Positions 944 through 22,884 of a DNA stretch of 32,370 nt are shown piece after piece. This DNA comes from Candidatus Raymondbacteria bacterium RIFOXYA2_FULL_49_16. GTDB taxonomy: Bacteria; Fibrobacterota; OXYB2-FULL-49-7; XYB2-FULL-49-35. The first letter of the stretch is position 1. The number at the start of each line of letters is the position of its first letter. The stretch lies in assembly GCA_001789205.1 (NCBI GenBank), contig MFYT01000096.1, forward strand, positions 85,522 to 117,891, in the 5' to 3' direction. The notes beneath the pieces are model-generated. The model did not search any database, was not told the DNA's origin, and saw nothing but the letters and a program-made list of their open reading frames with translations. The position numbers were made by a program, and so were the translations under genes.

Positions 944-1312
944 TTAGTGGACCGATTCCAAACCTTGGGCAAGGGCGTATTCAACCACAGGCCTGTTCTC
1001 CATACCATGGCTGGCAAAGACCTTCCGGACCTTGTCCGGAGTAATATCACAATATATTACCCGTGGAAAACCTTTTACTTCAACAGTGACCATGGGTTCC
1101 CTGCTGCACATGCCCGCGCACCCTGAAGCGGAAACGTGTATGTCCGCATGGTTTTTCGCTTCGTAAGCAAATGCATCGAAGACCGCCTGGGCCCCTGCTG
1201 AGAGTCCGCACGTCCCCATATGGACAGTGATCCGCGCCCGGAAACCCTCGCGCTCTTCACGGGAGCGCCGGGCGAGCGCTGCAAGCCCATCCATGGTCAG
1301 TTTTTCCGTCAC
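944..1312 (-). CDS. Small thioredoxin-like [2Fe-2S] protein (HndB-like)
   Basis: A 122-residue protein resembling the stand-alone [2Fe-2S] subunit HndB of NAD(P)-linked hydrogenases, an electron carrier between NADH flavoprotein and partner. The thioredoxin-like ferredoxin signature appears as GTCGLSAGA (Cys35) and GCAGMC (Cys65 and Cys69). The first half carries only one cysteine, where NuoE proteins have C-x4-C, as in the HndB branch as I recall it. The N-terminal 25 residues are charged and contain no signal peptide, so it should act in the cytoplasm. Its ATG overlaps the stop of the NuoG-NuoE fusion by 4 bases, so the two are probably translationally coupled. With the NuoE domain of the fusion, the operon encodes two separate thioredoxin-like [2Fe-2S] domains. 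Confidence 0.85.
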   Translation of the reverse strand: MTEKLTMDGLAALARRSREEREGFRARITVHMGTCGLSAGAQAVFDAFAYEAKNHADIHVSASGCAGMCSREPMVTVEVKGFPRVIYCDITPDKVRKVFASHGMENRPVVEYALAQGLESVH

Positions 1313-4056
1313 TGGGCCCTCCGGTATTGTTCAAGTAACTGCGCGGTCTTTGCAGGCGTCAGTTTTGCATGGACATCGTTATTTATCATGACCGCGGGCG
1401 CAAGACCACACATGCCCAGGCAGCGCACCATCTCAAGTGAAAACTGCCGGTCAGGCGTAACGCCGCCCACGGAAATACCCAGACGCTCCTCAAACTCCTT
1501 CACGATTTCCTGGGCGCCCATTACAAAACAAGCGGTGCCCATGCACACTTTTATCTGGTTTTTTCCGCGCGGTTTCATGGAGAAAAATGAGTAGAACGAC
1601 ACAATGCCAAAGACATCGCTTGCCGGCAGATTGAGTCCAAGGGCAATATACGACTGAACGGGCAATGGAAGATAGCCGATCACTTCCTGCGCCTTCTGTA
1701 AAACCGGAATAAGGCCGCCTGTTTTTCCGCGATACGCGCTGAGTATGGCGTCCAGGTCTTTCTTTTTACCGTCAAGATGTCCGGCAGCAAGAAATTCCTT
1801 GAGCCGCTCCCTGGTATCTGATGCATTGGGCGCCGGGGTTACCAGACCAACGCCAACGCTCTCCTCGCACAACTTTTTACTATGGTATTCACCCGAACGC
1901 CAAGCCTTGTGGATAATATCAGGATAGCGATGATCGGGTATAAGCGCGTATTCCCTGCCGCCTTTTTCAAGCGACTCGTAAGTAAGGCCAGTGAGTTCAG
2001 GAACTGTTGCGAGAATTTCTTGTTCCCAAATATCACGGGCCGACTCATGATTCCAGGAAGCCCCCATGTGCCGCGCCAGAAGCGAAAAAATCTCCCATAC
2101 CGGTTTTGCCTGACCAAAAACAGGCGCCGCGGTACGCACCATGTTCACCTGCCTACGGCTGCTGATTGTTGTACCGTCGTACTCTGACCAGGCGGCCAGA
2201 GGAAGCACCATATCGGCGTCCACGCCTTTGAAAAGGGAAAAAGCGACTGTATAGTCGACCGTGGCCTGTTCCATACCCTGAAGAAGGGTATTCTCACCCA
2301 CGCAAAAAAGCATCTTTATTTTGCCGGTCCCGCATGCTTCAGCGACTTTTTCAAGATTTGGTCCCTTTGCGTTGGTAAGTCCGCAGTCCCACAACCGTTC
2401 GAACTGGTTTTTTCCCGGACTTGGCGCAATCTCAAGGAATCCGGGATAATAATCCGGCAATGCTCCCATAAGACAGGCGCCCAGTGTATTATTGTTGCCT
2501 GAAAAAGAATTGATGTTACCGTTGCCAAGTTTTTTGATGTTCTCGAACGTTTCGAGGCTTTGCACTGCCGCGCCGTCGTATACAACCAACGCCGGTCCCT
2601 GCTGAGCAATGAGCGCTTTGGCGGATTCAATATCAGCAGAGCTCACCCCCGTAACCGCACCAGCCTTGTCCGCGGAAATGGCGCCAATGAGGGCTGAAAT
2701 AATAATGTCTTCGGTCCCTATGCACGGTTTCAGGTGCAGCGCGGCAAAAGAAGCGAGTTTTGGGGTATCCGCGTCTATGAGAATCAACTGGCTTCCCCTC
2801 AATGTTCCCCGTTTGACAAAGGCGGTTGCCACAGGATTATCTTCTCCGATCCTGCCGCCAATAACTATGCAAAGCCGCGCCTCCTCTATTTCCCTGAAGG
2901 AATTGGCCATGAGGGAACCGGAAAAGGCCGCATGTTCGGACTGGTTAATGGCATTTGTCCCGACCAGGGTCCTGAAGAATTTCTGCAGCAGAAAGAAGTC
3001 CTCGTTCGTGTGACGCGGCGACACCACACAGGCAATAGCATCGGGGCCGTGTTGATCGCGCACATTCATTATTTTCCTGCCCACCAGTTCGAGCGCTTCG
3101 CTCCATGACGCCTCCCGGTAACCATTGGCTTCGCGGACAAGGGGCTTTGCCAACCGGTTGGCGGAATGGATGAAATCATAGGCAAACCTGCCCCGCATGC
3201 ACAGACTGCCCTGATTGGGCTTGGCGGATTCATCTCCGGTCACCTTGACGATCTTTCCTCCCTTTACATGCAGTACAAGACCGCAGCCAACACCGCAGAA
3301 ATGACAGACCGTGCGCACCATGGCCGTTTCCCATGGACGGGCGTGATAACGCGCCTTTTTTTCAACAAGCGCGCCAACCGGGCACGCCTGCACGCATTCG
3401 CCGCAAAAGACGCAGTCGGATCCAGCAAGGGACAAGTCTCCGGCGGTCACCACCTTGGCCGATTTGCCCCGGTAGCCCAGAGAGATGGCGTTGTTCACCT
3501 GCTGCTCGTTGCATGCCTGGACACACCTGCCGCAGAGTATGCACCGTGAAAAGTCTCTGATAATAAAGGGATTCGCATATTCGGCCGCATAGCGTGGTTT
3601 GGAGCCCTTGAACCGGGAACTCTTTACCTGGTACCGGTAGGCATAGTGCTGAAGTTTGCACGCGCCATAGACAGCGCACAGATCCCCGCCCGCATCGTAC
3701 GCTGCCGCACTGGTCTGCAATGCAGTCCATTCTTTGGCGTCAACACTGCGGGATGCGCAATTATGATTTCCCGATGAAAGAAGGAGTTCGAGAGTCGCCT
3801 TTCGTGATTTTACCACACGCGGACTCTCGGTTTTTACCACCATGTCTTTTGCAGCGGGCATGGAACAGGCCGGTACCAGACTCCGGGCCTTTTCAACCTC
3901 AACCACGCAGAGACGGCACGCGCCAGTAGGAATGGTCCCTTTAAGATGGCAGAGCGTGGGAATAGCAATGCTGTTCCGCTGCGCAACCGCAAGAATGGTT
4001 TCGCCGCTCTCAAAGGGATATTTGATCCCGTTTATGATAATGCCGTTTTCGATCAT
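1309..4056 (-). CDS. NuoG-like / formate-dehydrogenase-alpha-like Fe-S subunit fused to a C-terminal NuoE domain
   Basis: A 915-residue soluble electron-transfer subunit. Domains in order: [2Fe-2S] ferredoxin (Cys36, 47, 50, 64); a NuoG N3-type His/Cys motif (His98, Cys100, Cys127, Cys133) interrupted by about 24 extra residues; two 4Fe-4S motifs (Cys172-182 and Cys215-225); the molybdopterin-oxidoreductase Fe4S4 domain (Cys251, 254, 258, 286); a molybdopterin-oxidoreductase-like domain to about 690; and a NuoE-type thioredoxin [2Fe-2S] domain (Cys838, 843, 879, 883). The expected catalytic Cys/Sec of formate dehydrogenases is not seen: the aligned region reads NQSEHAAFSG. A wiring role like NuoG is therefore more likely than formate oxidation. 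The ATG at 4056 overlaps the rnfB stop by 4 bases and fits the ferredoxin N-terminus; an upstream non-ATG start at 4104 would overrun rnfB. Best call is a NuoG-NuoE fusion serving the adjacent NuoF. Confidence 0.88.
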   Translation of the reverse strand: MIENGIIINGIKYPFESGETILAVAQRNSIAIPTLCHLKGTIPTGACRLCVVEVEKARSLVPACSMPAAKDMVVKTESPRVVKSRKATLELLLSSGNHNCASRSVDAKEWTALQTSAAAYDAGGDLCAVYGACKLQHYAYRYQVKSSRFKGSKPRYAAEYANPFIIRDFSRCILCGRCVQACNEQQVNNAISLGYRGKSAKVVTAGDLSLAGSDCVFCGECVQACPVGALVEKKARYHARPWETAMVRTVCHFCGVGCGLVLHVKGGKIVKVTGDESAKPNQGSLCMRGRFAYDFIHSANRLAKPLVREANGYREASWSEALELVGRKIMNVRDQHGPDAIACVVSPRHTNEDFFLLQKFFRTLVGTNAINQSEHAAFSGSLMANSFREIEEARLCIVIGGRIGEDNPVATAFVKRGTLRGSQLILIDADTPKLASFAALHLKPCIGTEDIIISALIGAISADKAGAVTGVSSADIESAKALIAQQGPALVVYDGAAVQSLETFENIKKLGNGNINSFSGNNNTLGACLMGALPDYYPGFLEIAPSPGKNQFERLWDCGLTNAKGPNLEKVAEACGTGKIKMLFCVGENTLLQGMEQATVDYTVAFSLFKGVDADMVLPLAAWSEYDGTTISSRRQVNMVRTAAPVFGQAKPVWEIFSLLARHMGASWNHESARDIWEQEILATVPELTGLTYESLEKGGREYALIPDHRYPDIIHKAWRSGEYHSKKLCEESVGVGLVTPAPNASDTRERLKEFLAAGHLDGKKKDLDAILSAYRGKTGGLIPVLQKAQEVIGYLPLPVQSYIALGLNLPASDVFGIVSFYSFFSMKPRGKNQIKVCMGTACFVMGAQEIVKEFEERLGISVGGVTPDRQFSLEMVRCLGMCGLAPAVMINNDVHAKLTPAKTAQLLEQYRRAQ

Positions 4057-5948
4057 GCTTTTTGTTTTACCCGTGTATAGCAGACCAGGCCGCAGTCGAG
4101 ACAACGCGATGCCTCGTGCACTGCGCTTTGCTCATCAAATCCCGCATCTGTGTGCATTATCTGGAGGGCCTCAGCAGGGCTTCCAGCGCCCAAAAGCGAA
4201 GGTATGGTCCGTAGAATGGTTTCAAGGTCCTCAATGCGGTCTATGTTCTGGATGTCTTTTGTCTCATGTACCAGCTTTTTTTGAGGCTCAATAGGATCGC
4301 CCGAAAGATATCTGTGGAGCGACCTGACAATCTTACGGCCCGCGCCCACTGCATTGACCACAGCTGTATAATCGCTCACCCTGCCTGCCTCTACAGCGCC
4401 AAAAAGCCCCTCGTTCCGCTGCTCTGAAAATCCTCTGAAGGTCTCGACTGTGCGCCAGCCCACCCGGACGCCCTCCTCAAACACAGGAACAATGACCATT
4501 TCAGACAGCCTGCCTGTTTCAACAATGACACAATCTGCCGAGACCGCCTTTGGTGCTTGCGTATCGGTACTAATATTCACCGTGGTTAGAACATTGCCCG
4601 TTCCAGACAAGCCCACAACAAGTTCCCTGGCGCCTGGCCGCGCATTGACGACCCGTTTCCCGGAAATAAGCCTTTGCTCAGCCCCTTCCTGGAGCAAATC
4701 GACCTTCAGGTACACGCCTGGCATAGAGGATTCAGAAACAGCAGGGCCGCGTATCACTTTTCTGCTGTCCATGCCGCCAGTGGTAAAAAGAATTGCCGCA
4801 AAGCCGTCATTAAAAAGGGAGTCAAAGGTGATGTCCCGGCCAAAGAGACAATTGGTTTTTACTTCCACACCGGATTGAAGTATGCCATCTATCTCCCAGT
4901 CAAGCGCTGCTTTTGGCAGCCGGTCCCGGGTAATGACATAGCGGAGAACGCCGCCCAGTTCTGGCATGGCTTCAAAAATGACCGGCGAATGGCCTAGCCG
5001 CGCAAGATAATAGGCCGCTGTAAGACCCTCTGCGCCCCCGCCAATCACCGCCACTTTTTTTCCGGTCTTTTCAGCGGTATGCGAAACAACCCGCCTGCCC
5101 GAGGCCATTTCATAGTCAGCAACGAATTTCTTGAGTGTATTGATAGACACTGCCTGGTCCGCAAGGTTCCGGCGGCATTCAAATTCACAAGGCGCCGGGC
5201 AGATACGGCCGCAGACAAGAAGCAGAGGGTTTTTTTCGCGCATGACACGTATGGAATCTTCGTACCTTTTCTCGGCAATGGCCTTGATATACCTGGGAAT
5301 GTCAATCCCGGCCGGACAAGCACGCTGACAGGGAGCCGTGCATTCGGCGGCCGTGTATTCGCTGGTAAACCGCTTTTCATTCGTAGTGCGGACAATGATG
5401 CCTTTGGGACATATTTTTTCGCATATGCCGCAGCCTGTGCATAATTTCGCATTGACCACGGGCAGGGTTCCATGCATGGTAATGGCGTTGAATGGGCAGG
5501 CCTGCGCGCAGGTGCCAAGTCCCAGGCAGCCAATGGTGCAGGTCTTGGAACCGCCATAGAGCGCTGTGGCCGCCCTGCAGTCCCTGAATCCATTGTAAAA
5601 ATATTTGAGATCAGCATGTTCAAGATCGTATCGGCATCCCGGAAGCGCTATTTCAGGTTCGCGCATGCGGACTTCAATGCCAAGGACGCGCGCAACCTGG
5701 ATGGCAATGGCATTACCGCCCGCAACGCACACCGAGGGGCCCGCCTTGCCCGCAACCACGGCAGTAGCGGCGGCAGCGCAGCCCGCAAAACCACAGGCAC
5801 CGCAATTCGCACCTAAAAGCGCTCCGGTCACGGCTTCAATTCGGGGATCTTCCCGTACAAAGAAAATCCTGGCTGCAATGACAAGCATGCCCCCCAGCAG
5901 GAGGCCAAGGCCAAGCAGCGATAGAGTGGCGATAAGTACCGGTTGCAT
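4053..5948 (-). CDS. rnfB: RnfB fused to a GltD-like FAD oxidoreductase domain
   Basis: A 631-residue fusion. Residues 1-30 form the RnfB membrane anchor. Residues 49-74 hold the RnfB 4Fe-4S motif C-x2-C-x4-C-x16-C. Ferredoxin cysteines follow at about 137-151 and 170-180. Canonical RnfB ends near there, but this protein continues with a GltD-type N-terminal Fe-S domain (cysteines 203-258, with CQRACPAGIDIP and CGRICPAPCEFEC), an FAD Rossmann loop GGGAEG at about 303-308, and a final EASRCLDCG at about 612. RnfB is the ferredoxin-side subunit of the Na+/H+-pumping ferredoxin:NAD+ oxidoreductase; GltD-like domains pass NAD(P)H electrons through FAD. The usual second GxGxxA nucleotide loop after GKRVV is not recognisable. 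The gene starts 5 bases after rnfA and overlaps the NuoG-NuoE fusion by 4 bases. No frameshift is visible at the fusion junction. Confidence 0.92.
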   Translation of the reverse strand: MQPVLIATLSLLGLGLLLGGMLVIAARIFFVREDPRIEAVTGALLGANCGACGFAGCAAAATAVVAGKAGPSVCVAGGNAIAIQVARVLGIEVRMREPEIALPGCRYDLEHADLKYFYNGFRDCRAATALYGGSKTCTIGCLGLGTCAQACPFNAITMHGTLPVVNAKLCTGCGICEKICPKGIIVRTTNEKRFTSEYTAAECTAPCQRACPAGIDIPRYIKAIAEKRYEDSIRVMREKNPLLLVCGRICPAPCEFECRRNLADQAVSINTLKKFVADYEMASGRRVVSHTAEKTGKKVAVIGGGAEGLTAAYYLARLGHSPVIFEAMPELGGVLRYVITRDRLPKAALDWEIDGILQSGVEVKTNCLFGRDITFDSLFNDGFAAILFTTGGMDSRKVIRGPAVSESSMPGVYLKVDLLQEGAEQRLISGKRVVNARPGARELVVGLSGTGNVLTTVNISTDTQAPKAVSADCVIVETGRLSEMVIVPVFEEGVRVGWRTVETFRGFSEQRNEGLFGAVEAGRVSDYTAVVNAVGAGRKIVRSLHRYLSGDPIEPQKKLVHETKDIQNIDRIEDLETILRTIPSLLGAGSPAEALQIMHTDAGFDEQSAVHEASRCLDCGLVCYTRVKQKA

Positions 5949-5953
5949 ATATC

Positions 5954-6547
5954 CTATTTTAATGCTGTTAAAGAAGCGTCAACGCCCGCAAAACCAAAAA
6001 AAGCCAGCGCCATAAGTCCCGCGGTAATCAGAGTTATTGCCGTGCCCTGGAGCGCTCTGGGCACTGGTGAGACCGATATCCGTCTCCGGATCCCGGCCAT
6101 TAACACAAGCGCAAGAGAAAATCCCGCGGCAGAAGCAAGGGAGAAGACTATGGTATGGACAAAATCGTAATCGCGGCGGATACAGATGATAGCCACCCCG
6201 AGTACCGCGCAGTTTGTCGTAATAAGAGGCAGATAAATGCCCAGTGCCTGGTAGAGTAACGGCGCGCTTTTTTTCAGGAACATTTCCACAAGCTGGACAA
6301 GTGCCGCAATAACCAGGATAAAGACCAGCGTCTGGAGGTAGCCAAGGCCAAAAGGATCGAGCATATATCGCTGCACAACCCACGTACAGGCGCTCGAAAG
6401 GGTCAAAACAAAAATGACCGCCATGCCCATACCTAGGGCCGTGTCCATTCTGTTTGAAACACCGCAAAAAGGACAGTTTCCAAGATATTGGGCAAGCAGG
6501 ATGTTTTTTACTAGCATAGCGGAAATGACGAGTATCAGCAGTTCCAT
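5954..6547 (-). CDS. rnfA: Rnf complex integral membrane subunit A
   Basis: A 197-residue hydrophobic protein with about six membrane segments, matching RnfA in length and sequence (KNILLAQYLGNCPF near the N-terminus, DTALGMGMAV, and LITTNCAVLG). Together with RnfE it forms the membrane-embedded channel-like core of the Rnf ion pump. The cysteines thought to hold the membrane [2Fe-2S] cluster shared by RnfA and RnfE are present (Cys25 and Cys113). It lies 4 bases downstream of rnfE and 5 bases upstream of the rnfB fusion. Nothing in it departs from the family, so the ion-translocating core looks functional even though the electron-input subunits of this operon are unusual. Confidence 0.96.
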   Translation of the reverse strand: MELLILVISAMLVKNILLAQYLGNCPFCGVSNRMDTALGMGMAVIFVLTLSSACTWVVQRYMLDPFGLGYLQTLVFILVIAALVQLVEMFLKKSAPLLYQALGIYLPLITTNCAVLGVAIICIRRDYDFVHTIVFSLASAAGFSLALVLMAGIRRRISVSPVPRALQGTAITLITAGLMALAFFGFAGVDASLTALK

Positions 6548-6551
6548 GACA

Positions 6552-7145
6552 TCACCTCTTCCCCAATGAATTCATGATGCCTAAAATAAGGCCAAGGCAG
6601 ACAAATGCGCCCGGCGCTTCTACCAAAAAAGAAAAAGGTTGATAGCTGCTGCCCATAACCTGCATGCCAAACCAGGTACCGCTGCCCAATATCTCCCGGA
6701 TGGAGGCAAGAACAGTAAGCGATAAAGTATACCCAATCCCCATGCCCAGGCCATCAAGAGCTGAAGGCAGCACCGGATTTTTTGACGCAAAGGCCTCTGC
6801 CCTGCCAAGAATAATGCAGTTTACCACAATGAGCGGTATAAATATCCCCAGTTTCTGATAGAGGGGAAAAAAATAGGCCTGGGTTATCATTTCGACCAAG
6901 ACCACATAGGTAGCCACAATGGCGATATAACTGGCTATCCGTACTTTTTTTGGAATCACGTTACGTAAAAGAGAAACCAGCACGTTGGAACAGAGCAGCA
7001 CAAAAGTGACGGCAATACCCATGCCAAGGCCGCCATCAGCCGATTTTGTCACAGCGAGCGCCGGACAAAGTCCGAGCACCAGCCTGAAGGGCGGTATCTC
7101 TTTCCAGAGACCCTTAGTAAATTCCCTAATTCTCAGATCCATCAT
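6552..7145 (-). CDS. rnfE: Rnf complex integral membrane subunit E
   Basis: A 197-residue multi-pass protein of the RnfE/NqrD family, partner of RnfA in the ion-pumping core. Family features are LGLCPALAVTKSA near the N-terminus, GLGMGIAVTFVL, IPLIVVNCIILGRAEAFA, and a final GLILGIMNSLGKR. Cys27 and Cys110 match the cluster-binding cysteines expected opposite those of RnfA. The gene opens with two consecutive ATG codons (7145 and 7142). The first overlaps the rnfG stop as ATGA and is used here, with AAAGG just upstream. The length is typical, apart from the absence of a long C-terminal tail seen in some homologues. Confidence 0.96.
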   Translation of the reverse strand: MMDLRIREFTKGLWKEIPPFRLVLGLCPALAVTKSADGGLGMGIAVTFVLLCSNVLVSLLRNVIPKKVRIASYIAIVATYVVLVEMITQAYFFPLYQKLGIFIPLIVVNCIILGRAEAFASKNPVLPSALDGLGMGIGYTLSLTVLASIREILGSGTWFGMQVMGSSYQPFSFLVEAPGAFVCLGLILGIMNSLGKR

Positions 7146-7717
7146 TTGCCTTTCAACACGCGCTGTTTACGCTCCTGATATCTCAGCAGATTGCTAATAA
7201 CAGCCGCACAAGCGCCCCGTGATGAGACCGTTGCTCCTGAAATACCGTCTATAACGCCGCCATCAGCCCGTATTTTCATGATATCGTTAACTGATTTTCC
7301 CTTGAAAAGACCGGTAAACGCCTCCTCGGTAATACGCAAACCAATACCCGGCGTCTCAGAACACGAGGTAACAGCCATGCCGGTAATAGTATCCATTGCA
7401 ATGTTGTATCCGACAATAATACATATATCACCGCCAAAACCGGCTGCTTTTGAACCGCAGGCAATTGAAACGAGAGAATCGCCCCGCTTCCCAAGAAAGA
7501 GCGTGGCGCCACCGGTACTATCCTGTATCTGCATCCTATCCGATACCGGATCGTTTGTTGTCTCTTCGAGGACCTTCTTGATCGCAGGGCCTTCCACATA
7601 TCGCAGAAACTGGTCTTCAATGCACTCTCGCGTCAGGGTGCGCGCTCCTGCGAGCAAAAACCCGCACAACCCGCAAAAAAGGGTAAGCATGCCGATCATT
7701 TTCAGATTCTCGTTCAT
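7142..7717 (-). CDS. rnfG: Rnf complex FMN-binding subunit G
   Basis: A 191-residue RnfG/NqrC-type protein. It has one N-terminal membrane helix (about residues 7-25) followed by an extracytoplasmic FMN-binding domain. The covalent flavin motif is clear: DGISGATVSS, with Thr163 the expected phosphodiester-linked FMN site. The segment GYNIAMDTITGMAVTSCSETPGIG matches the family's G-x-I-xGxxVxxxxETPGxG pattern. RnfG shuttles electrons on the outer face of the membrane between RnfD and the remaining subunits. It overlaps rnfD upstream and rnfE downstream by 4 bases each. Unlike RnfC and RnfD in this operon, its cofactor motif is unaltered. Confidence 0.95.
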   Translation of the reverse strand: MNENLKMIGMLTLFCGLCGFLLAGARTLTRECIEDQFLRYVEGPAIKKVLEETTNDPVSDRMQIQDSTGGATLFLGKRGDSLVSIACGSKAAGFGGDICIIVGYNIAMDTITGMAVTSCSETPGIGLRITEEAFTGLFKGKSVNDIMKIRADGGVIDGISGATVSSRGACAAVISNLLRYQERKQRVLKGK

Positions 7718-8682
7718 ATCTGCTGCACCTTTTCAAATTGCCGCGGTTTGGACAAAACCATTTCAAGAAGCGGGGCCGCGATATTCATGATCATGATTGC
7801 AAAGATAACGCCGTCTATGTTCGAACTCCATACTCTGAGGAGCATTGCGAATACTCCAGCACCAAGCCCGTAAAAGAACCTTCCCGGAGGATTTCCTGGA
7901 GAACTCGCGTAGTCGGGCGCAAGGAAAAAGGCGCCCAAAAGCGCGTTTCCGGCAAGTATATGGAAAAGCGGACCAGCATACCTGGCCGGATCAACACTAT
8001 GGAAGAGCTGGCTGCAAAGCGCAATGCCAATGAGGAAAGACGCGGGAACAATCCACGATGCGAATCCCCGAAGAACAAGGTAGGTCCCGCCCGCAACAAT
8101 ACAAAGCGCGGATGCTGCGCCAATACCGCCTGCCTGATTGCCCAGCAGAAGGTCTTTTATCGCGAATTGGCCGATCCCCGCCGCGCCCTCTTTTTTCAGG
8201 ACAGAGAGTGGATAGAGGGTCGAAAAACCCGGATCATAGTTTAACAGAGAAAAGTCAAAATTCACATACTGGGGCCATGAAAGAAAGACAACAGTCCAGC
8301 CCACAAGCACGGAATTAATGGGATTGCATCCAAGTCCTCCAAACACATGCTTTCCAACAAGCATGCTCATAAACGCGCCAACGAGGATGACCCAGAAGGG
8401 CGTTGACGGAGGCAAAAGAAGGGCAAAGAGCAGGCCCGCAAAAGCAGCGCTGCCATCGTGAACGGTTATTTCCCGTCTGAAAAGCCGCTGTAAAATGATT
8501 TCAAAAACCATGGCTGAACCCATGGAAAGAAGTATGACCCTGAGCGCGTGCAGGCCATAGTGACTGACGCCAATTGCGGCAGCTGGCATAAGGGCAAGAA
8601 TGGTATTAAGATACATGGTGGTAACATCCGCCTTGCTGTGGCTGTGCGGCCGGAACGAGACAACAAGCGGGGCCTGTCTCAT
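7714..8682 (-). CDS. rnfD: Rnf complex membrane subunit D
   Basis: A 322-residue multi-pass RnfD/NqrB-family protein. Recognisable segments are HDGSAAFAGLLFALLLPPSTP (split here as HDGSAAFAGLLFALL plus LPPSTP, about 75-95), VGKHVFGGLGCNPINSVLVG (about 109-128), LSWPQYV, LLLGNQAGGIGAASAL (about 178-193) and the C-terminal helices. RnfD normally carries covalent FMN on a Thr in an S/T-x-A-T-P-L motif ahead of the LLLGN segment. The corresponding stretch reads FSTLYPL (153-159), so the flavinylated Thr seems to be missing or shifted. It overlaps rnfC and rnfG by 4 bases each. Membership of the family is secure; the flavin question is an alignment by eye. Confidence 0.95.
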   Translation of the reverse strand: MRQAPLVVSFRPHSHSKADVTTMYLNTILALMPAAAIGVSHYGLHALRVILLSMGSAMVFEIILQRLFRREITVHDGSAAFAGLLFALLLPPSTPFWVILVGAFMSMLVGKHVFGGLGCNPINSVLVGWTVVFLSWPQYVNFDFSLLNYDPGFSTLYPLSVLKKEGAAGIGQFAIKDLLLGNQAGGIGAASALCIVAGGTYLVLRGFASWIVPASFLIGIALCSQLFHSVDPARYAGPLFHILAGNALLGAFFLAPDYASSPGNPPGRFFYGLGAGVFAMLLRVWSSNIDGVIFAIMIMNIAAPLLEMVLSKPRQFEKVQQI

Positions 8683-9701
8683 ACTGCGGCCTCCCCTTTT
8701 TTCAATTCATCTGAGGCAAAGGAGATTAGCTGGAGCAGGGGTCTGTGCGCCGGGCAGACATACGAACAGAGCCCGCATCCTATGCAGGAATCGATCGCAT
8801 ATTCCCGGCACGTGTCAAAGCGTGAATATTCGGCGTAACGCGCAAGATGATTGACCTTTAAACGGGCCGGACAGACAGCCGTACATTTACCGCAATTGAA
8901 ACAAGGTACGCTTTCATAGCGCACCAGCTCTTTTTCCGTCTGCGCCGCAATGCCGTCGGTTTGACTGGTTACCTGAATAGCGGCGGGCTGGTAGATTGCG
9001 CTGCCTGTCAGCAAGCCGCCGCAGACGACCTTTCTTACCACAGCCATGTCAACGGACTGCGAATCCAGGACCGATTGAACGCTTTGACCAACGCGCACAC
9101 ATACATTCTTGCGCTGGGGAAACCCGCTACCAGAGAGCGAAACCAGTTTTGTGGTTGGCGCTGCGCCCGTTTCAACAGCATTAGTCATGGCCACAAGCCG
9201 TTCGGCATTCACATACATGCTTGTACCCACGCCCGACCGCAACCGCTTTACCATGGAAGCAAGCATCTGGGGAAAACCATTTGGATACACTGGGGCTATG
9301 ACGGCCACCTCAGCCAGATCCGCGGCCAATGACACGGCCCGTTTTCTTTGGCAAGGAAATATCGCAAGCACAATTTTTTTTGGTTGGATGATATGTTGCA
9401 GCAGGCTGAGTCCCCTGGCAACCGTGTCCGGATACAGGGAAAAAACATGCTGCTGAATGGTCACTGCCGGGTCTGTATCACAGGCGCTGACAATGACAGT
9501 GTCAGCATCGGACGGAACAGCGCCAAGGCCAAAACCAAAGGTTTGCAGCTTTTCCCTGAGTTCCGTTGGCTTTTCCTGGAGAAAACCCGCAGTGAGTTTG
9601 ACAGGGCTTTCCGGGACAGCGTCGCGCATATCTAGATAGGGCAGCTCCTGCCCATGCCGGACCCGAAATGGAACTATGCCAAAAAACGAACGGATACCCA
9701 T
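8679..9701 (-). CDS. rnfC: Short, divergent RnfC
   Basis: A 340-residue RnfC homologue. The C-terminus carries the two expected 4Fe-4S motifs (Cys267, 270, 273, 277 and Cys306, 309, 312, 316) followed by HRPLLQLI. The middle follows the RnfC fold, with NGFPQML in place of the usual YPQGxEK and a GVGTSMYVNAERLV segment aligned to the NVGTA region. The N-terminus is shorter than typical RnfC (usually about 430 or more residues): the GGIHPP barrel-sandwich region and the GLGGATFP FMN loop are missing, and the NGAECEPYLT motif reads SACDTDPAVT (72-81). Loss of FMN/NADH binding is inferred. The ATG at 9701 is chosen because AAAGG lies 7 bases upstream and the gap to the cytochrome gene is 4 bases; an upstream start at 9737 would overlap that gene. 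Confidence 0.9.
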   Translation of the reverse strand: MGIRSFFGIVPFRVRHGQELPYLDMRDAVPESPVKLTAGFLQEKPTELREKLQTFGFGLGAVPSDADTVIVSACDTDPAVTIQQHVFSLYPDTVARGLSLLQHIIQPKKIVLAIFPCQRKRAVSLAADLAEVAVIAPVYPNGFPQMLASMVKRLRSGVGTSMYVNAERLVAMTNAVETGAAPTTKLVSLSGSGFPQRKNVCVRVGQSVQSVLDSQSVDMAVVRKVVCGGLLTGSAIYQPAAIQVTSQTDGIAAQTEKELVRYESVPCFNCGKCTAVCPARLKVNHLARYAEYSRFDTCREYAIDSCIGCGLCSYVCPAHRPLLQLISFASDELKKGEAAV

Positions 9702-9705
9702 TGAT

Positions 9706-10083
9706 TTACCTTTTATGACACAGGGAACAGTCGTCAAGCCCGTGGCAATCCGCGCACTGTGATCCTATGCAGCGCGTATGTATCTTTGCCTCTTTACATG
9801 CGCCCGCAGCGTGGCCGCGTGCATCATAGTGACACTCCCGGCAACGCATAACCGTCTGTTTTCCACCGTTAGGATCATAATTATGGTGGCACTGCGCGCA
9901 TTCAAGGCCGGCTTTATCGGGCCCAATATGCCGCGGATGGTCAAAAACAACAGGGCCGCCCTTTGCAAGGAACAGGACCTTTGCGGGAGATGATTTTTTT
10001 TCAAGCGCAAATCCGGCAAGACCCGCTGCCAGACAAAAAAAGGCAATGACCATCCAAAAAACCTTTTGCGCCTTTTTCTTCAT
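9706..10083 (-). CDS. Periplasmic tetraheme cytochrome c (class III / c7-like)
   Basis: A 125-residue exported cytochrome. Residues 1-26 form a Lys-rich start plus hydrophobic signal peptide ending near GFA. Four CxxCH heme c sites are visible at 62-66, 81-85, 110-114 and 119-123. Extra histidines at 49, 52, 67, 91 and 102 are candidates for distal ligands, and the FDHPRH segment is typical of cytochrome c3/c7 proteins. It is the first gene of the rnf operon, 4 bases before rnfC. A multiheme cytochrome at the head of rnfCDGEAB is known in Desulfovibrio (dhcA-rnf) and, with a different protein, in Methanosarcina. By analogy it could exchange electrons with RnfG/RnfD on the outer face. The ribosome-binding site is weak. 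Confidence 0.93.
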   Translation of the reverse strand: MKKKAQKVFWMVIAFFCLAAGLAGFALEKKSSPAKVLFLAKGGPVVFDHPRHIGPDKAGLECAQCHHNYDPNGGKQTVMRCRECHYDARGHAAGACKEAKIHTRCIGSQCADCHGLDDCSLCHKR

Positions 10084-10132: not shown

Positions 10133-10363
10133 TTATTTCACTAATAACATTCTACGTTTTTGGATAAAATCGTCCGCTATTATCCGATAGATATATAGAC
10201 CACTGGCGAGTGTTCTGCCATTATCCGATTTACCATCCCAAATAACAGAATGATAGCCAGGTTTTTTTATTTCATTTACCAGTAATGCCACGGAATTAAG
10301 CCAGCCTAATAATAATGGGGTCTTTTTCATACCCTTCATCTCCTTAATTAAACTGTTATCCAT
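10133..10363 (-). CDS. Short ORF made almost wholly of a FlgD-like / type A sorting-domain end; probably a gene fragment
   Basis: A 76-residue ORF whose last 50 residues match the C-terminal beta-sandwich of FlgD-like and T9SS type A sorting domains: GYHSVIWDGKSDNGR, then ASGLYIYRI and a closing KRRMLLVK. In intact secreted proteins this module follows several hundred residues of passenger. Here nothing precedes it except about 28 residues without a signal peptide, so it is likely the surviving 3-prime end of a larger gene. An AGGA sequence 5 bases before the ATG could still allow translation. It lies 9 bases downstream of the beta-propeller gene, whose protein has its own different sorting end, so this is not simply a frameshifted continuation of that gene. 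Confidence 0.5.
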   Translation of the reverse strand: MDNSLIKEMKGMKKTPLLLGWLNSVALLVNEIKKPGYHSVIWDGKSDNGRTLASGLYIYRIIADDFIQKRRMLLVK

Positions 10364-10372
10364 CTTAATCCT

Positions 10373-11563
10373 TTATTTGGCAACTACGAATTTCGCAAAC
10401 ATCTTTTGTCCATTGCTTTTTATTCCAAAAATGTACAAACCTGGGGGCAGAGTATTGATTTTTATCCGTGTTTCGCCTGCAGAAATGGATAGTGTGTTTT
10501 CAAACACCTTTTTCCCACAAATGTTTTTAATAGAAACCTCTGTTCTCGATGAATACATTGTCCGTGGCGTTATTATGGATAGTGTGTTCGGGGTCATATA
10601 CTGAACACACAACGTGGCGCTGGATATTGTTGGACTTTGTTTCTTTGCAATTGATAACTCTGCATCCGGTGATGTATGAATTGTTCCAGAGATGCTCACG
10701 GCAACATACTGGCTGTTTCCATAAGTAATTGAAGAAAGGTGATGCGTTATCCCAGAGATTTGGCTTGTCCATGTAATGCCATCCGTAGAGGTAAGAACGC
10801 TGCCACTCTCTCCAACAACAACATATTGATTGTTACCATAGACGATCGAAAAAAGATAGCTAGACAAACCAGACGTTCTATGTGTCCATAATATGCCATC
10901 AGAAGAAGTAATGATGATACCACTATCCCCTACGGCGATATACTGGTTGTTGCCATAAGTGATTGATGCAAGGTTTTTACTTGTTCCAGTGGTCTGACTT
11001 GTCCATGTCGTGCCATTAGGAGAGGTAAGCATCGTCCCGCCGTAACCATCAGCGATAAATTGGTTGTTGCCATAAGTGATCGAATTAAGGGAGCTTGATG
11101 TTACAATGTTTTCTGTCCAAGATATTCCGTCTACTGAGGTATTGATGTGGTTGCCCGTGCCCAAAGCCACATATTGATTGTTGCCATAGGTGATTGAATA
11201 GAGATAATACGGTGCACCTCCATTGTTCGTGATGTTTGCCCAAGTTATACCATCAGTTGAAGTGACTGTGGTAGTGGCATTGTATTGGGACATAATATAG
11301 CCCCCACCCACCGCAACGAATTGGTTGTTTCCATAGGTGATTGAATTAAGCCCAACCGTTGTTCCTGAGTTTCTGCTGGTCCAATTCATGCCATCCGAAG
11401 ATGTTAGAATTGTACTATTACCCCCCACAGCAATAAACTGGCTGTCTCCAAACGTGATTGAATTAATGTTGTACGTTGTTCCTGAGGTCCTATTAGTCCA
11501 ATCAACCTGGGCAAAGCAGGTAATGGAAAATAGAATGATTATTACTTGTGTTATTTTAAACAT
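10373..11563 (-). CDS. Secreted seven-repeat beta-propeller protein with C-terminal sorting domain
   Basis: A 396-residue exported protein. The ATG at 11563 gives a classic signal peptide (residues 1-18, ending CFA) and has AAAGGA upstream; earlier in-frame starts back to 11617 would bury it. From about 25 to 295 there are seven tandem repeats of about 38-48 residues, each with SITYGNNQY-AVG ... ILTSSDGITWT. This is the sialidase/Ycf48-like blade pattern, so a seven-bladed propeller is expected. The C-terminal 75 residues (beginning near MYSSRTEV, ending LPPGLYIFGIKSNGQKMFAK) form a type A-like sorting domain. The substrate is unknown. The region is lower in GC than the rnf operon. Confidence 0.85.
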   Translation of the reverse strand: MFKITQVIIILFSITCFAQVDWTNRTSGTTYNINSITFGDSQFIAVGGNSTILTSSDGMNWTSRNSGTTVGLNSITYGNNQFVAVGGGYIMSQYNATTTVTSTDGITWANITNNGGAPYYLYSITYGNNQYVALGTGNHINTSVDGISWTENIVTSSSLNSITYGNNQFIADGYGGTMLTSPNGTTWTSQTTGTSKNLASITYGNNQYIAVGDSGIIITSSDGILWTHRTSGLSSYLFSIVYGNNQYVVVGESGSVLTSTDGITWTSQISGITHHLSSITYGNSQYVAVSISGTIHTSPDAELSIAKKQSPTISSATLCVQYMTPNTLSIITPRTMYSSRTEVSIKNICGKKVFENTLSISAGETRIKINTLPPGLYIFGIKSNGQKMFAKFVVAK

Positions 11564-11873
11564 TATGAGTCCTTTCCATATGCGATAAAAATGCATTACA
11601 TTTTCTTTTCTACGCACAGACTTGGCCTATACCGGCGCGTTTTTAGACAATGTCCGCTTTCCATTTAAATTAATCTCTTCCACTTCTTTTCGCAAGCATA
11701 TTTATGCGCTCTCCGTCAAAATCGAGATATAGCCGGCAATTCTTCAAAAATTGACCACACGGGAAGCTCTAGAGGCAATGATCGCAATTTATGATTCAGC
11801 ATGTCTTCAAAAAACTCTTTTCAATATTTATGCGGCCAGCCCCAGAGCCTCACGGTTATTTTATTTAGCATGA
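11564..11873. other. Intergenic stretch, no gene recognised
   Basis: About 310 bases between the two secreted-protein genes. No convincing terminator hairpin, RNA gene or coding sequence was seen. It should contain the promoter of the propeller gene, whose AAAGGA ribosome-binding site is at its low-coordinate end, but no clear -35/-10 pair stands out. Confidence 0.4.
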
Positions 11874-12785
11874 CTACCTCGTTAAAACTGCCATAGCAAT
11901 ATATTTGCTTTCTAAACCGCTAATATTATTGACGCACACATAATACGAGCCACTCGGAAGGCCTGATGCATTCCATGAATAAACAGGCGCATCCACTTGC
12001 TTTTTATATACACAAGCTCCGGTAACATTATATATCCTTAGATATTGGATTGAATTCCCTTGGCTAAGAGCAATCTTTACTGTGGAATTAAAAGGGTTAG
12101 GGCTAATATTCAAGTTGTTTTTTATGTGTTTATTCGGCTCTTGAAAATCGATTGATGCAACGGTGTCATAATAAGTTGAGCCTGAGCCTTTTTTAAAATC
12201 CCTAAGATAGTAATATGGCCCTGTAAAGCGGCAAAATTCAGTAAAAAATGGGCCGCGTATATTACCAATCCCCAATAGAATCGTATCAGCGTACGTTTCA
12301 CCACATAGATAATCATAATAATATGCATCATATATGGTATTCATTAATAAAGATTGGCCTATTCCTTTGAAATATTTTGTCATGTACAATGGCTCAAATA
12401 AATCTACACTTACCTGAATAGAATCCCCAACTGTCGTTGTTAAAAAATCGTAGAGTATTACTTCTGAATCTGAAACAGAATGTCTATAATAAACTTTTCT
12501 GAGTGAATCTTCACGAATCCAACCATAGAATGAATGATTAGAAATCTCAGTGCCAGCATCATCCTTTTCATAGCTATAGATATTTGTATACATAGTTTGA
12601 CCAATGTTAGTTTTACCGTCAAGAACATATTTAAAATGAGAAATTTCATACCCAGGAGGGCCACTAATTTCTGAATATCTATCAACAGCCCAAATTGCAC
12701 TATCCGTCGGAAATGGTACATATGTCTGAGCCGAGTTTACTGAAACTATCATAATAATAAAGAATCCACATAAAGAACGAAACAT
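11874..12785 (-). CDS. Secreted protein of unknown function with C-terminal type A sorting domain
   Basis: A 303-residue exported protein. The ATG at 12785 follows GGAGG by 5 bases and gives a signal peptide (MFRSLCGFFIIMIVSVNSAQ); in-frame starts further out to 13028 add an implausible charged leader. The body (20-220) is rich in Tyr, Asp and Ser, and I do not recognise the fold. The last 80 residues are a clear sorting domain: NISPNPFNSTVKIAL, LRIYNVTGACVYKK, then ASGLPSGSYYV. Such ends direct export and surface attachment through type IX secretion in the FCB group. The gene stands alone, has low GC like its neighbour, and may be an extracellular or cell-surface protein. Confidence 0.8.
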   Translation of the reverse strand: MFRSLCGFFIIMIVSVNSAQTYVPFPTDSAIWAVDRYSEISGPPGYEISHFKYVLDGKTNIGQTMYTNIYSYEKDDAGTEISNHSFYGWIREDSLRKVYYRHSVSDSEVILYDFLTTTVGDSIQVSVDLFEPLYMTKYFKGIGQSLLMNTIYDAYYYDYLCGETYADTILLGIGNIRGPFFTEFCRFTGPYYYLRDFKKGSGSTYYDTVASIDFQEPNKHIKNNLNISPNPFNSTVKIALSQGNSIQYLRIYNVTGACVYKKQVDAPVYSWNASGLPSGSYYVCVNNISGLESKYIAMAVLTR

Positions 12786-13055
12786 AAAACCTCCATTAGT
12801 TAATACGATTTTTATTCGTATGTCTGGTGTGGATCGAGAGCCTCTTTTGGTCTTTCTCTCTTTATAGGAACATAAATTAGGGTCGTTTCTCACGCTATAA
12901 TCTCTTTCGTGCGAATCATTTATTCTGCCAGTTCTCCCTCGGATTTCCTTATATTCTTGTAAGAAAAGGCGGGATCGGGAAAGACATTTTTCCTGTGAAT
13001 TTCCCCACCCCCTTATGAACTTTTGCAATGAAAGGGTCTATCGTAAAAGATCACC

Positions 13056-14663: not shown

Positions 14664-15730
14664 GCGCCCCTCTTTTTCGCGTACGCATAATAGGCCGCGC
14701 AGGTCCCTTCGCTCGAAACCATGCACGCACCCACAGGTTCCGACGGCGTACACTGCCTGGCAAAAAGGGCGCAGTCGTATGGCGTCTTCACTCCTCTTAA
14801 TATTTTACCGCAGATGCATGCGGGATTTTCATCGTCAGACTCTATCGCAATATCTGAAAAAATCAATTCAGCGTCAAAGGCCGCGTATTCCCTGCGTATT
14901 TTTAAACCGCTGCCCGGTATGCGTCCCACGCCACGCCACATAGCATCGCACGGTTCAAAAACCTCCTGTATAATACGCTGGGCAGCCAGGTTTCCTTCGG
15001 GCGTAACGCTCCGGGAATATTCTATCTCAACACTGGACCGACCTTCAACAATCTGGCGTAACAACATCTCTATGGCGCCAACCATGTCCATTGGCTCAAA
15101 ACCAGCCACAACGCAGGGGACCTTGTGCTTTTCCGCTAGAAACGCATAAGCGTTCGATCCAATGACAACGCTGACATGCCCAGGGCAGAGAAAACCATTG
15201 ATATCAATGGGTCCGGCTGAAACAAGAGCGGCCATTGCCGCTGGCATTGTTTTGTGCATGCACAGGACTGAAAAATTGGCCACACCTGTCTCAGCGCTGT
15301 TTTTAATGGTCCATGCCACACCGGGAACAGTTGTCTCAAACCCCACACCTAAAAAGACAACCCGTTTGTCCGGGTTTTTTCGTGCCAGGTCCAAAGCATC
15401 GAGCGGGGAATATACCACATGTACATGGCCGCCCTGGGCACGCACGCGTTCGAGCGATGTAGTGCTTCCAGGAACCTTGATCATGTCGCCAAAGGTGGCC
15501 ACGATTGTGTCAGGACAACCGGCAATGGCAATGGCTTTGTTGATTGAATCGTTTGCCGTGACACAGACCGGACATCCGGGCCCGGAAATGAGTGACAGCC
15601 GCTCTGGAAGCAGGGAACGCAGTCCAGACCTGAAGGCCGCCATGGTATGAGTACCGCATACTTCCATGAACTTAAGCGGCTGTTTTGCCTCTGCAAAAAG
15701 CGCGTACACCTGTTCAATGCGTTTATTCAT
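14660..15730 (-). CDS. hypD: [NiFe]-hydrogenase maturation protein HypD
   Basis: HypD scaffold, about 356 residues, which with HypC assembles Fe(CN)2CO for [NiFe]-hydrogenases. Signature stretches are MEVCGTHTMA, SGPGCPVCV, GVGFETTVP, LCPGHVS, GFEPMDM and the C-terminal cluster region with CICG. The conserved Cys of GTHT and GPGCPVC motifs are all present. The start is taken at the ATG at 15730, which overlaps the hypC end by 8 bases and has AGGA about 10 bases upstream. ATG 15739 is an alternative that would add three residues. It overlaps hypE by 4 bases. Confidence 0.96.
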   Translation of the reverse strand: MNKRIEQVYALFAEAKQPLKFMEVCGTHTMAAFRSGLRSLLPERLSLISGPGCPVCVTANDSINKAIAIAGCPDTIVATFGDMIKVPGSTTSLERVRAQGGHVHVVYSPLDALDLARKNPDKRVVFLGVGFETTVPGVAWTIKNSAETGVANFSVLCMHKTMPAAMAALVSAGPIDINGFLCPGHVSVVIGSNAYAFLAEKHKVPCVVAGFEPMDMVGAIEMLLRQIVEGRSSVEIEYSRSVTPEGNLAAQRIIQEVFEPCDAMWRGVGRIPGSGLKIRREYAAFDAELIFSDIAIESDDENPACICGKILRGVKTPYDCALFARQCTPSEPVGACMVSSEGTCAAYYAYAKKRGA

Positions 15731-15971
15731 GCGGACCATGTCCTGGCGCGCCAGGTTCAACACTGCGCATTTCATCCATCAGACCGTTGAACTCAGCCAC
15801 ATCAGCTTCAGACCATTTTTGAATGGCAAATCCGGCATGAACAATAACATGGTCGCCAACCTTCGGGTCTGGGATGAGCGAAACAACCACTTCCCGCCGT
15901 ATGCCTTCAGTATCAATGATCGCCTTTTCACCGTCTATACTCACAATTTTCGCTGGTACTGCAAGACACAT
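15723..15971 (-). CDS. hypC: [NiFe]-hydrogenase maturation chaperone HypC
   Basis: An 82-residue HypC/HybG chaperone that carries the iron centre with HypD and hands it to the hydrogenase large subunit. The N-terminus must be Met-Cys so that Cys2 is exposed. The ATG at 15971 gives MCLAVPAK exactly, so the slightly longer start at 15977 is rejected. The OB-like core shows the VGDHVIVHAGFAI motif. The tail is Gly/Pro/His-rich and short. It lies 18 bases after hypF and overlaps hypD. Confidence 0.96.
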   Translation of the reverse strand: MCLAVPAKIVSIDGEKAIIDTEGIRREVVVSLIPDPKVGDHVIVHAGFAIQKWSEADVAEFNGLMDEMRSVEPGAPGHGPHE

Positions 15972-15989
15972 AAACAACCGCCATTCCGG

Positions 15990-19271: not shown

Positions 19272-19943
19272 TCAAGAAATAGCGGAAATACCCTCTTCGT
19301 TGTCTCGCAGGGCCGCCTGGCCGGCCTTGTCCTGGGCATTGACAAAATAGATCATGTTCTCGAGTTCTACGGCAAGATTCACGTTTGTTACAATGCACCC
19401 GTCAGTCACTTTCAGCTCAATGGGCGAAAAATTGAGCACACCCTTGATGCCCGCCTTGCACATAAGGTCAAAAGTCTGCTGAGCCGCAATATCCGGCACG
19501 CATAAAATGGCTATCCGTATGCCATGGTCTTTTATAAACGGGACCAGTCTCTCGAGCGGCAGCACTTCAACGCCCATTTTACTGTTCTGCTTCGCCGGAT
19601 CAATATCAAAGGCCGCCTCGACTTTAATACCCTCTTTCTCAAAATTCTTGTATTTGAGCAGCGCGGATCCCAGATTTCCCGCACCAACAAGCACCACCTG
19701 CTGCACTTCGTTCTTGCCCAGAATATCGTTCAATTTTTCTATCAGCTGTTCAATGACATATCCTCCCCGCTTGTTGCCCATAATATTAAAAAGGGAAAAA
19801 TCTTTACGCACCTGGGCTGAAGTCACGCCAACTGCGTCAGCGAGATAACTGGAAAAAATCTTGAAAAAACCAAGGGATTTGAAACGATGCAAGGCGTTCT
19901 TATACCGAGAAAGCCTTAATACGCAGTTTTTGTTTGTGACCAT
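19272..19943 (-). CDS. rex: Redox-sensing transcriptional repressor Rex
   Basis: A 223-residue Rex. It binds operators when NAD+ is high and is released by NADH, controlling fermentative, hydrogenase and respiratory genes. The N-terminal winged helix contains SLGFFKIFSSYLADAVGVTS-like sequence and VRKDFS. The Rossmann domain has GAGNLG (87-92) and the AAFDIDPAKQN NAD-binding strand. The C-terminal NLAVELENMIYFVN matches the domain-swapped helix. It heads the hyp operon, so hydrogenase maturation is probably under NADH/NAD+ control. I found no convincing Rex operator in its own upstream region by eye. Confidence 0.95.
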   Translation of the reverse strand: MVTNKNCVLRLSRYKNALHRFKSLGFFKIFSSYLADAVGVTSAQVRKDFSLFNIMGNKRGGYVIEQLIEKLNDILGKNEVQQVVLVGAGNLGSALLKYKNFEKEGIKVEAAFDIDPAKQNSKMGVEVLPLERLVPFIKDHGIRIAILCVPDIAAQQTFDLMCKAGIKGVLNFSPIELKVTDGCIVTNVNLAVELENMIYFVNAQDKAGQAALRDNEEGISAIS

Positions 19944-22878: not shown

Positions 22879-22884
22879 TGGGGG

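Follow-up and report, generated by a model that had tools for sequence, protein, structure and literature searches.

A shortened RnfC that appears to lack its NADH/FMN site, in a candidate cytochrome-linked Rnf operon with a hydrogenase-like NADH module

Can an Rnf complex work with an RnfC that has lost its NADH/FMN site, and where would its electrons then go? The question is raised by the window (the whole stretch of 32,370 nucleotides analysed here, from Candidatus Raymondbacteria bacterium RIFOXYA2_FULL_49_16), which encodes an RnfC that the initial annotation read as a pure Fe-S relay in an operon where NuoF handles NADH. The gene is part of a tightly spaced operon on the minus strand (gaps of −4 to +12 nt), with the following genes in operon order:

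9706..10083, minus strand: tetrahaem c3/c7-like cytochrome c with an N-terminal hydrophobic anchor or signal; four CxxCH motifs (Pfam Cytochrom_CIII, E 2.3e-8)
8679..9701, minus strand: RnfC of 340 aa without the barrel domain, the GxGGAxFP loop or ECEP; both 4Fe-4S motifs present
7714..8682, minus strand: RnfD; covalent-FMN motif [ST]xAT changed to STLY (Thr to Tyr) in the alignment to 7zc6_D and 9eri_D and in a 91-row alignment
7142..7717, minus strand: RnfG of the NF045876 (RnfG_DVU2794) type (197.4 bits, cut-off 205); SGAT flavinylation motif kept
6552..7145, minus strand: RnfE (TIGR01948 above cut-off); cluster cysteines C27 and C110 kept
5954..6547, minus strand: RnfA (TIGR01943 above cut-off); cluster cysteines C25 and C113 kept
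4053..5948, minus strand: RnfB fused to a GltD/NfnB-like flavoprotein, 631 aa (Pfam FeS, Fer4, Fer4_20); FAD motif kept, NAD(P) Rossmann motif deleted
1309..4056, minus strand: BfuA-like subunit (FDH/NuoG-like) fused to a C-terminal NuoE/BfuC (Pfam, NCBIfam, alignment to 6tg9_A)
944..1312, minus strand: thioredoxin-like [2Fe-2S] protein, the HydB/BfuB N-terminal domain as a gene of its own (NF041612, E 8.2e-6), homologous to the Trx gene of loci L173 and L174
2..931, minus strand: NuoF/BfuB, the start of a 501-aa protein reaching beyond the window (L009:16948-18453; 7t2r_B, E 1.9e-207)

The cytochrome gene is the first of the operon and lies 4 nt before rnfC. The cytochrome at the head of the operon, the loss of the covalent-FMN threonine in RnfD and the RnfB-GltD fusion had all been passed over by the initial annotation. 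A scan for a Rex box 5′ of the operon gave nothing above the window background. The start of the BfuA-NuoE fusion was placed at the ATG at 4056 by start context and spacing (the listed ORF begins at TTG 4104), and its NuoE-like C-terminal part matches 2Fe-2S_thioredx (E 3.3e-48). Alignment to 6tg9_A reveals the BfuA-like part to be a formate-dehydrogenase/NuoG-like Fe-S protein with the Sec/Cys-His loop missing, as in L173 and L174, and a working formate dehydrogenase was therefore rejected for this subunit. NuoF/BfuB has intact FMN/NADH motifs (GRGGAGF, NADEGDPG, CGEETA) and a C-terminal 2x4Fe-4S segment; 7t2r_B, its closest match, is subunit B of a bifurcating NiFe hydrogenase. One ApbE is encoded elsewhere in the genome and could flavinylate RnfG.

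Comparison with solved RnfC structures defines what the window RnfC has lost. The protein can be aligned to 7zc6_C from residue 64 on only (E 4.4e-29), and the profile comparison that the initial annotation had suggested gives a TIGR01945 match limited to profile positions 154-432, at 155 bits and below the cut-off of 245.95. In particular, GGVHPA and GLGGAAFP fall in gaps, INGCECEPYLT is replaced by VSACDTDPAVT, and GGEKQLI is replaced by GFPQMLA. Both CxxCxxCxxxCP motifs are complete (CFNCGKCTAVCP and CIGCGLCSYVCP). Complex1_51K persists as a sub-threshold remnant (24.3 bits, Pfam cut-off 31.2); the soluble-ligand-binding domain (SLBB), which the D. toluolica-type RnfC is also described as lacking, has no Pfam match at E 0.001, yet its region is alignable with the solved RnfC and NuoF folds; and the Methanosarcina-type RnfC equivalog NF041837 matches the C-terminal part only (113.7 bits, cut-off 650). 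The earlier description of a shortened RnfC, missing the N-terminal GGIHP region and the GxGGAxFP loop, altered at ECEP and intact at both 4Fe-4S motifs, is thus borne out. For comparison, the same genome (5.43 Mb) encodes a separate canonical Rnf, whose RnfC of 445 aa (L011:6383-7720) aligns with 9eri_C over its full length (residues 9-444, E 2.4e-125) and scores 549.7 bits against TIGR01945.

The rnfC ORF opens with an ATG, just 5′ of which is an AAAGG ribosome-binding-like stretch. The N-terminus, MGIRSFFGIVPFRV, is similar to MSIRSFFGILPARL of a 461-aa relative (L164), with the first 14 residues matching, and this resemblance suggests that the barrel was cut out internally, by what looks like an in-frame deletion. 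An upstream start, which had been named as the finding that would restore the missing domain, and a frameshift were both rejected, since there is an in-frame stop at 9765-9767 and the cytochrome gene, ending at 9706, fills the space. Among the RnfC proteins compared, the barrel deletion occurs in the window only, as might be expected if the missing barrel (not the missing FMN loop) were an assembly artefact of this genome; however, the deletion is in frame and the start context and neighbouring genes are intact, and we regard such an artefact as very unlikely. Chance can be set aside for the missing FMN motifs, whose loss recurs in 46 of 83 operons.

These 83 deduplicated rnfC-rnfD operons formed our comparison set and were counted without any filter on Fe-S motifs. 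The RnfC FMN loop and CEP and the RnfD FMN threonine are all lost in 46 of them, all kept in 35 and mixed in 2 (L052 and L054), while both RnfC Fe-S motifs are kept in all 83. A multihaem cytochrome c gene (at least three haems) adjoins rnfC in 34 of the 46 loss operons, as against none of the 35 intact operons, for most of which the upstream flank is short (of the 38 rows that fall outside the loss clade, 34 offer 747-1500 nt); no adjacent cytochrome was seen in the other 12 loss operons. The RnfG flavinylation residue is present in 70 of 71 rows, which include overlapping loci and are not all independent, and the remaining row ends before it. In a midpoint-rooted RnfD tree built without the trait columns, 45 of the 46 loss operons, from five phyla, lie on one side of a single branch (SH-aLRT 100). 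The 46th by pattern, L040, lies among canonical rows; its RnfD motif did not align, and it was grouped as partial. We infer that the intact FMN-site state is ancestral, because the GxGGAxF loop is common to NuoF and canonical RnfC.

The loss operons were sampled from several directions. Named genomes were scanned with the window and with two relatives as queries, which gave 11 loci; those read further show that Chitinispirillaceae, Krumholzibacteriota, Thermoanaerobaculales (Acidobacteriota) and Gemmatimonadales have this RnfC type as well. When 297 Desulfobacterota genomes were scanned with NF045876, 117 gave a match, 36 of them over the cut-off, and 40 regions were taken from matching genomes. 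The loss is clade-wide and includes many operons without NuoF, such as decahaem-cytochrome operons with an unfused RnfB (L133-L135). An intact NuoF is indeed encoded in the operon, but NuoF as the reason for the RnfC loss is not supported, and a one-off loss tied to it was rejected. The reading of RnfC as a pure Fe-S relay is a plausible prediction.

An AlphaFold model of the window RnfC, built from 8 sequences, has a pLDDT of 58.3 (below 50 in the Fe-S domain) and a pTM of 0.56. Its best fold match is RnfC 8ahx_C (Foldseek 6.4e-17, VIA Z 20.8), and the NqrA and NuoF folds match too; a middling model of this kind supports an RnfC/NuoF fold but cannot show FMN contacts. The likeness to NqrA is what one would expect if RnfC were a structural remnant like NqrA in Na+-NQR, with Fe-S clusters that take no part in turnover, and NqrA provides a precedent for the loss of RnfC cofactors (PMC12174285, PMC4014512). 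NqrA itself, however, is described in the same sources as having no clusters, whereas the 4Fe-4S motifs persist in every operon of our set, which makes a purely structural role highly improbable.

The retained and lost sites can be placed on the electron path described for the Rnf of A. woodii, which runs through RnfB, the RnfA/E cluster, RnfG FMN, RnfD FMN (T156) and riboflavin, the RnfC clusters and RnfC FMN to NAD+ (PMC11889175). Judging by their motifs, both FMN sites after RnfG are damaged in the window (the RnfD threonine changed to tyrosine, and RnfC FMN), whereas RnfG, the cysteines of RnfA/E and the clusters of RnfC are still in place. On balance we favour, as the probable reading, that the window RnfC acts as an FMN-free relay in a cytochrome-linked Rnf of the kind seen in D. 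toluolica and Desulfovibrio, which passes electrons from NADH/ferredoxin to periplasmic cytochrome c. Specifically, RnfC would no longer be an NADH:FMN enzyme, and its two 4Fe-4S clusters would let electrons pass between RnfD and a soluble partner. NADH, and perhaps ferredoxin too, would be oxidised by the BfuB/NuoF module; RnfB or the exposed clusters of RnfC would receive the electrons from the Bfu Fe-S chain, and the electrons would then cross the membrane from the RnfA/E cluster to the RnfG flavin and go on to periplasmic cytochrome c, or the whole path would run in reverse. Ion translocation would take place at RnfA/E. For the Rnf of Methanosarcina acetivorans, a path ending at RnfG with hand-over to cytochrome c has already been proposed (PMC4023990).

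In favour of this cytochrome-linked relay we count the joint loss in RnfC and RnfD, the kept RnfG flavin site, the adjacent cytochrome and the conserved Rnf-Bfu gene order, together with the separate canonical Rnf in the genome, the intact NuoF motifs, the tight spacing and ApbE. Weighing against it, Bfu modules can act alone in the cytoplasm, Rnf-Bfu operons fall in three places on the RnfD tree, and the 12 loss operons mentioned above have no adjacent cytochrome.

A different route would leave the U-shaped path intact: the RnfG flavin would sample RnfD directly, and electrons would return via riboflavin and the RnfC clusters to NuoF, so that the complex would still be a ferredoxin:NAD+ oxidoreductase, with its NAD site on a separate subunit and the cytochrome as an accessory. 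The retention of the RnfC Fe-S motifs in all 83 operons and the intact NuoF motifs fit such a route. The Asn and Asp at the riboflavin positions are also kept in the window RnfD (the riboflavin contacts given as N123/D249, alongside the FMN threonine T156, in PMC11889175), and flavin sampling has been proposed for Nqr/Rnf-like pairs without the RnfD site (PMC11334425), which are two-subunit complexes and a different system. Loss of the RnfD threonine throughout the clade, the cytochrome gene at the operon head and the canonical Rnf already present in the genome speak against it, and we consider this route doubtful. Work on D. alaskensis bears on both routes. There, dhcA, which encodes a decahaem cytochrome beside rnf, has little fitness effect, although growth on H2 or formate depends on rnf (PMC4215793), evidence against the cytochrome as an obligatory partner in that organism; attempts to detect ferredoxin-to-NAD+ coupling in membrane vesicles are reported as unsuccessful (PMC4841214), and the two results point different ways. 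Because the RnfC clusters and RnfD are fully retained, the sequences suggest that the RnfD-RnfC branch still carries electrons, with the periplasmic cytochrome perhaps no more than a side exit.

An RnfC without its NADH part is not new: the class is in print as the 'Desulfobacula toluolica-type' Rnf, with a large RnfB bearing NAD sites (PMC5109826), and the window is a variant of it. Like the Rnf of D. toluolica Tol2 (Rnf2 of Desulfococcus multivorans), the window has an RnfC without the NADH-oxidoreductase part and an enlarged RnfB (631 aa; about 700 aa in the published type, PMC5109826). Unlike that type, its RnfB-GltD has no NAD(P) motif, its RnfC has lost the barrel too, and a BfuABC-like module follows. 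With the Desulfovibrio Rnf (dhcA-rnfCDGEABF) the window shares a multihaem cytochrome before rnfC (PMC4841214) and an RnfG of the NF045876 (DVU2794) family; L133-L135, the three best NF045876 matches, which we provisionally assign to the Desulfovibrio type, differ in having a decahaem cytochrome, an unfused RnfB and no Bfu module in the downstream stretch covered. The Rnf of M. acetivorans is likened to the window in being NAD-independent, with a multihaem cytochrome c co-transcribed and RnfG as its proposed donor (PMC4023990), but is archaeal. With canonical Rnf (A. woodii, C. tetanomorphum, A. vinelandii) the window has in common the membrane core, the RnfG flavin site, the RnfA/E cysteines and the RnfC Fe-S domain, and differs in having neither the RnfC FMN loop/ECEP nor the RnfD covalent-FMN threonine. 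The BfuABC family (HydABC, Nfn-Bfu, Mbh-Bfu, Nuo-Bfu) is matched by the NuoF-like B subunit with C-terminal 2x4Fe-4S, the NuoE-like C subunit and the Fe-S A subunit; in the window, however, A is fused to C, the Trx domain is a separate gene, the partner is apparently Rnf, and bifurcation is a prediction.

In many members of the clade RnfB is fused to a GltD-like domain, the place of a further NAD(P) site. Among 21 such fusions, GGGNxAxD and YRRxxxEMPA (or near variants) are kept in 13 and not in 8. Compared with the 20 others, the window fusion has the GGGNTAxD/YRRSRxEMPA stretch deleted, and Pyr_redox_2 covers residues 293-333 only (295-594 in L078). The motif is degenerate or deleted in 15 of 15 Rnf-Bfu operons (14 from Desulfobacterota and the window). 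Downstream of the 13 fusions with an intact motif no Bfu module was seen, in stretches of about 4 kb for L074, L075, L077 and L078 and of about 160 nt for L143. A Fisher test (p 0.042; 3 of 5 versus 0 of 13) was set aside, since the rows are related and L143 is not judgeable from so short a stretch. In Desulfovibrionaceae, rnfB is reported as lost, with a gene for an FAD-dependent oxidoreductase in its place (PMC11434368); this gene may be the same thing as the RnfB-GltD fusions, which keep the RnfB part.

In one Desulfobacterota family, 14 of 46 genomes repeat the Rnf-Bfu gene order of the window. Specifically, a full-length A-C fusion is present in these 14 and a contig-cut piece in 4 more (about 61-69% identity), and a fused RnfB-GltD with a degenerate NAD(P) motif lies directly upstream in 14 of 14. 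The missing Sec/Cys loop of the A subunit was displayed for 10 of the 14. In a wider look at 11 of these operons, rnfC is on the contig in 7; all 7 of these RnfC proteins are without the FMN loop and CEP and have two Fe-S motifs, and a cytochrome gene could be identified for 5 of them. BfuB is fused to a second GltD in the two Desulfobacterota operons that were read completely, in contrast to the window BfuB with its usual 2x4Fe-4S. A Bfu module also stands behind Rnf at L142/L173 and L144/L174. In the L164/L175 operon, the reading frame of an FDH-like A subunit contains a TGA where selenocysteine would be expected, and this operon may carry a true formate dehydrogenase; no B or C subunit was found behind it. 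The three positions of Rnf-Bfu on the RnfD tree point to several recruitments or transfers of the module, or to its repeated loss.

Two arrangements of the module can be weighed on this evidence. The Bfu module could act by itself, as a soluble NADH-linked enzyme with nothing but the operon in common with Rnf, which would be fed by ferredoxin only, via RnfB. Many Bfu enzymes are soluble (PMC9304861), and the clade includes members with a short, unfused RnfB (L133-L135 and L158), both consistent with independence. Against it stand an A subunit devoid of its own catalytic Sec/Cys loop, a gene order shared by two phyla, and the loss of the GltD NAD(P) motif wherever Rnf and Bfu share an operon, and we judge independence unlikely. 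More tentatively than the relay itself, we suggest a possible 'Rnf-Bfu' supercomplex, in which a BfuABC flavin-bifurcating NADH/ferredoxin module would dock on the cytochrome-linked Rnf, as a third membrane-bound, ion-pumping Bfu beside Mbh-Bfu and Nuo-Bfu. Such a complex would couple cytoplasmic NADH and ferredoxin to a periplasmic multihaem cytochrome, and the NAD(P)H entry site would have moved from RnfC to RnfB-GltD to BfuB. In the open-licence literature, in the parts available, neither a loss of the RnfD threonine from the D. toluolica-type class nor an Rnf-Bfu operon came up, and in the Bfu paper Rnf is named in the reference list only (PMC9304861).

The window complex thus appears to be without the textbook NADH site of Rnf and to borrow the NADH-oxidising, hydrogenase-like module of its own operon, in a mechanism that we read from sequence and gene order alone. 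The usual assumption for related complexes of other bacteria is that they run on NADH, and publications on sulfate reducers (PMC4215793, for one) regard their Rnf as a ferredoxin:NAD+ pump, yet the RnfC class described here has no NADH/FMN site. Taken together, the losses of the RnfC FMN site and of the RnfD threonine offer a simple criterion, readable from sequence, by which NAD-linked and NAD-independent Rnf can be told apart, and they make the question of the redox partner testable. The Rnf-Bfu operon, in turn, suggests a new way to join electron bifurcation with an ion pump.

Partial degradation of the RnfC FMN motifs is also seen in the Fibrobacterota at loci L040, L052, and L054, which are positioned on the RnfD tree outside the loss clade, the side of the tree whose operons lost the RnfC FMN motifs and the RnfD covalent-FMN threonine. 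These losses are incomplete and separate from that in the loss clade. In the window's own genome, NuoF (L009:16948-18453) contains seven consecutive unread residues (N), located just beyond the window edge.

The window contains the following features outside the Rnf operon:

10133-13028, minus strand: a pair of secreted proteins, both carrying Por_Secre_tail sorting domains, plus an FlgD_ig-like fragment of 76 aa
13650-19345, minus strand: NiFe-hydrogenase maturation cluster (Pfam matches HypA, cobW, HypF, HypD, and AIRS)
15723-15977, within the span of the maturation cluster: 84-aa ORF, presumably HypC-like
19272-19943, minus strand: Rex-like redox repressor (domains CoA_binding and Put_DNA-bind_N)
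20155-26033, minus strand: ResIII helicase and an N6_N4_Mtase methyltransferase, together forming a Type III restriction-modification pair
26394-26966: resolvase
27498-31437, plus strand: HamA-domain protein, then a 1049-aa DEAD/DEAH helicase

The maturation cluster sits upstream of the Rnf operon, the two being separated by the secreted-protein stretch, which is of lower GC, and is adjoined by the Rex-like repressor gene. A simple scan for a Rex box ahead of the Rnf operon gave no signal over background; Rnf is described as being under Rex regulation in Desulfovibrio (PMC4215793). Within the restriction-modification pair, a BRO-N domain gene separates helicase from methyltransferase. The HamA-domain protein and helicase, adjoined by the resolvase, look like a Hachiman-type defence pair.

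The Desulfobacterota Rnf-Bfu operon L173, in which Rnf continues into a BfuABC-like module, carries genes (L173:3748-5556) between BfuC and the thioredoxin-like Trx; by eye, we take these to be DRTGG-like, PHP-like, and histidine-kinase-ATPase-like genes, which are frequent near [FeFe]-hydrogenase operons. At L164 (9348-12101) and L175, the Rnf operon is followed by a gene for an FDH-like A subunit, in which a TGA interrupts the frame at the expected selenocysteine position; a search behind this gene for a B or C subunit found neither. Judging from sequence, Rnf at these two loci is possibly paired with formate dehydrogenase.
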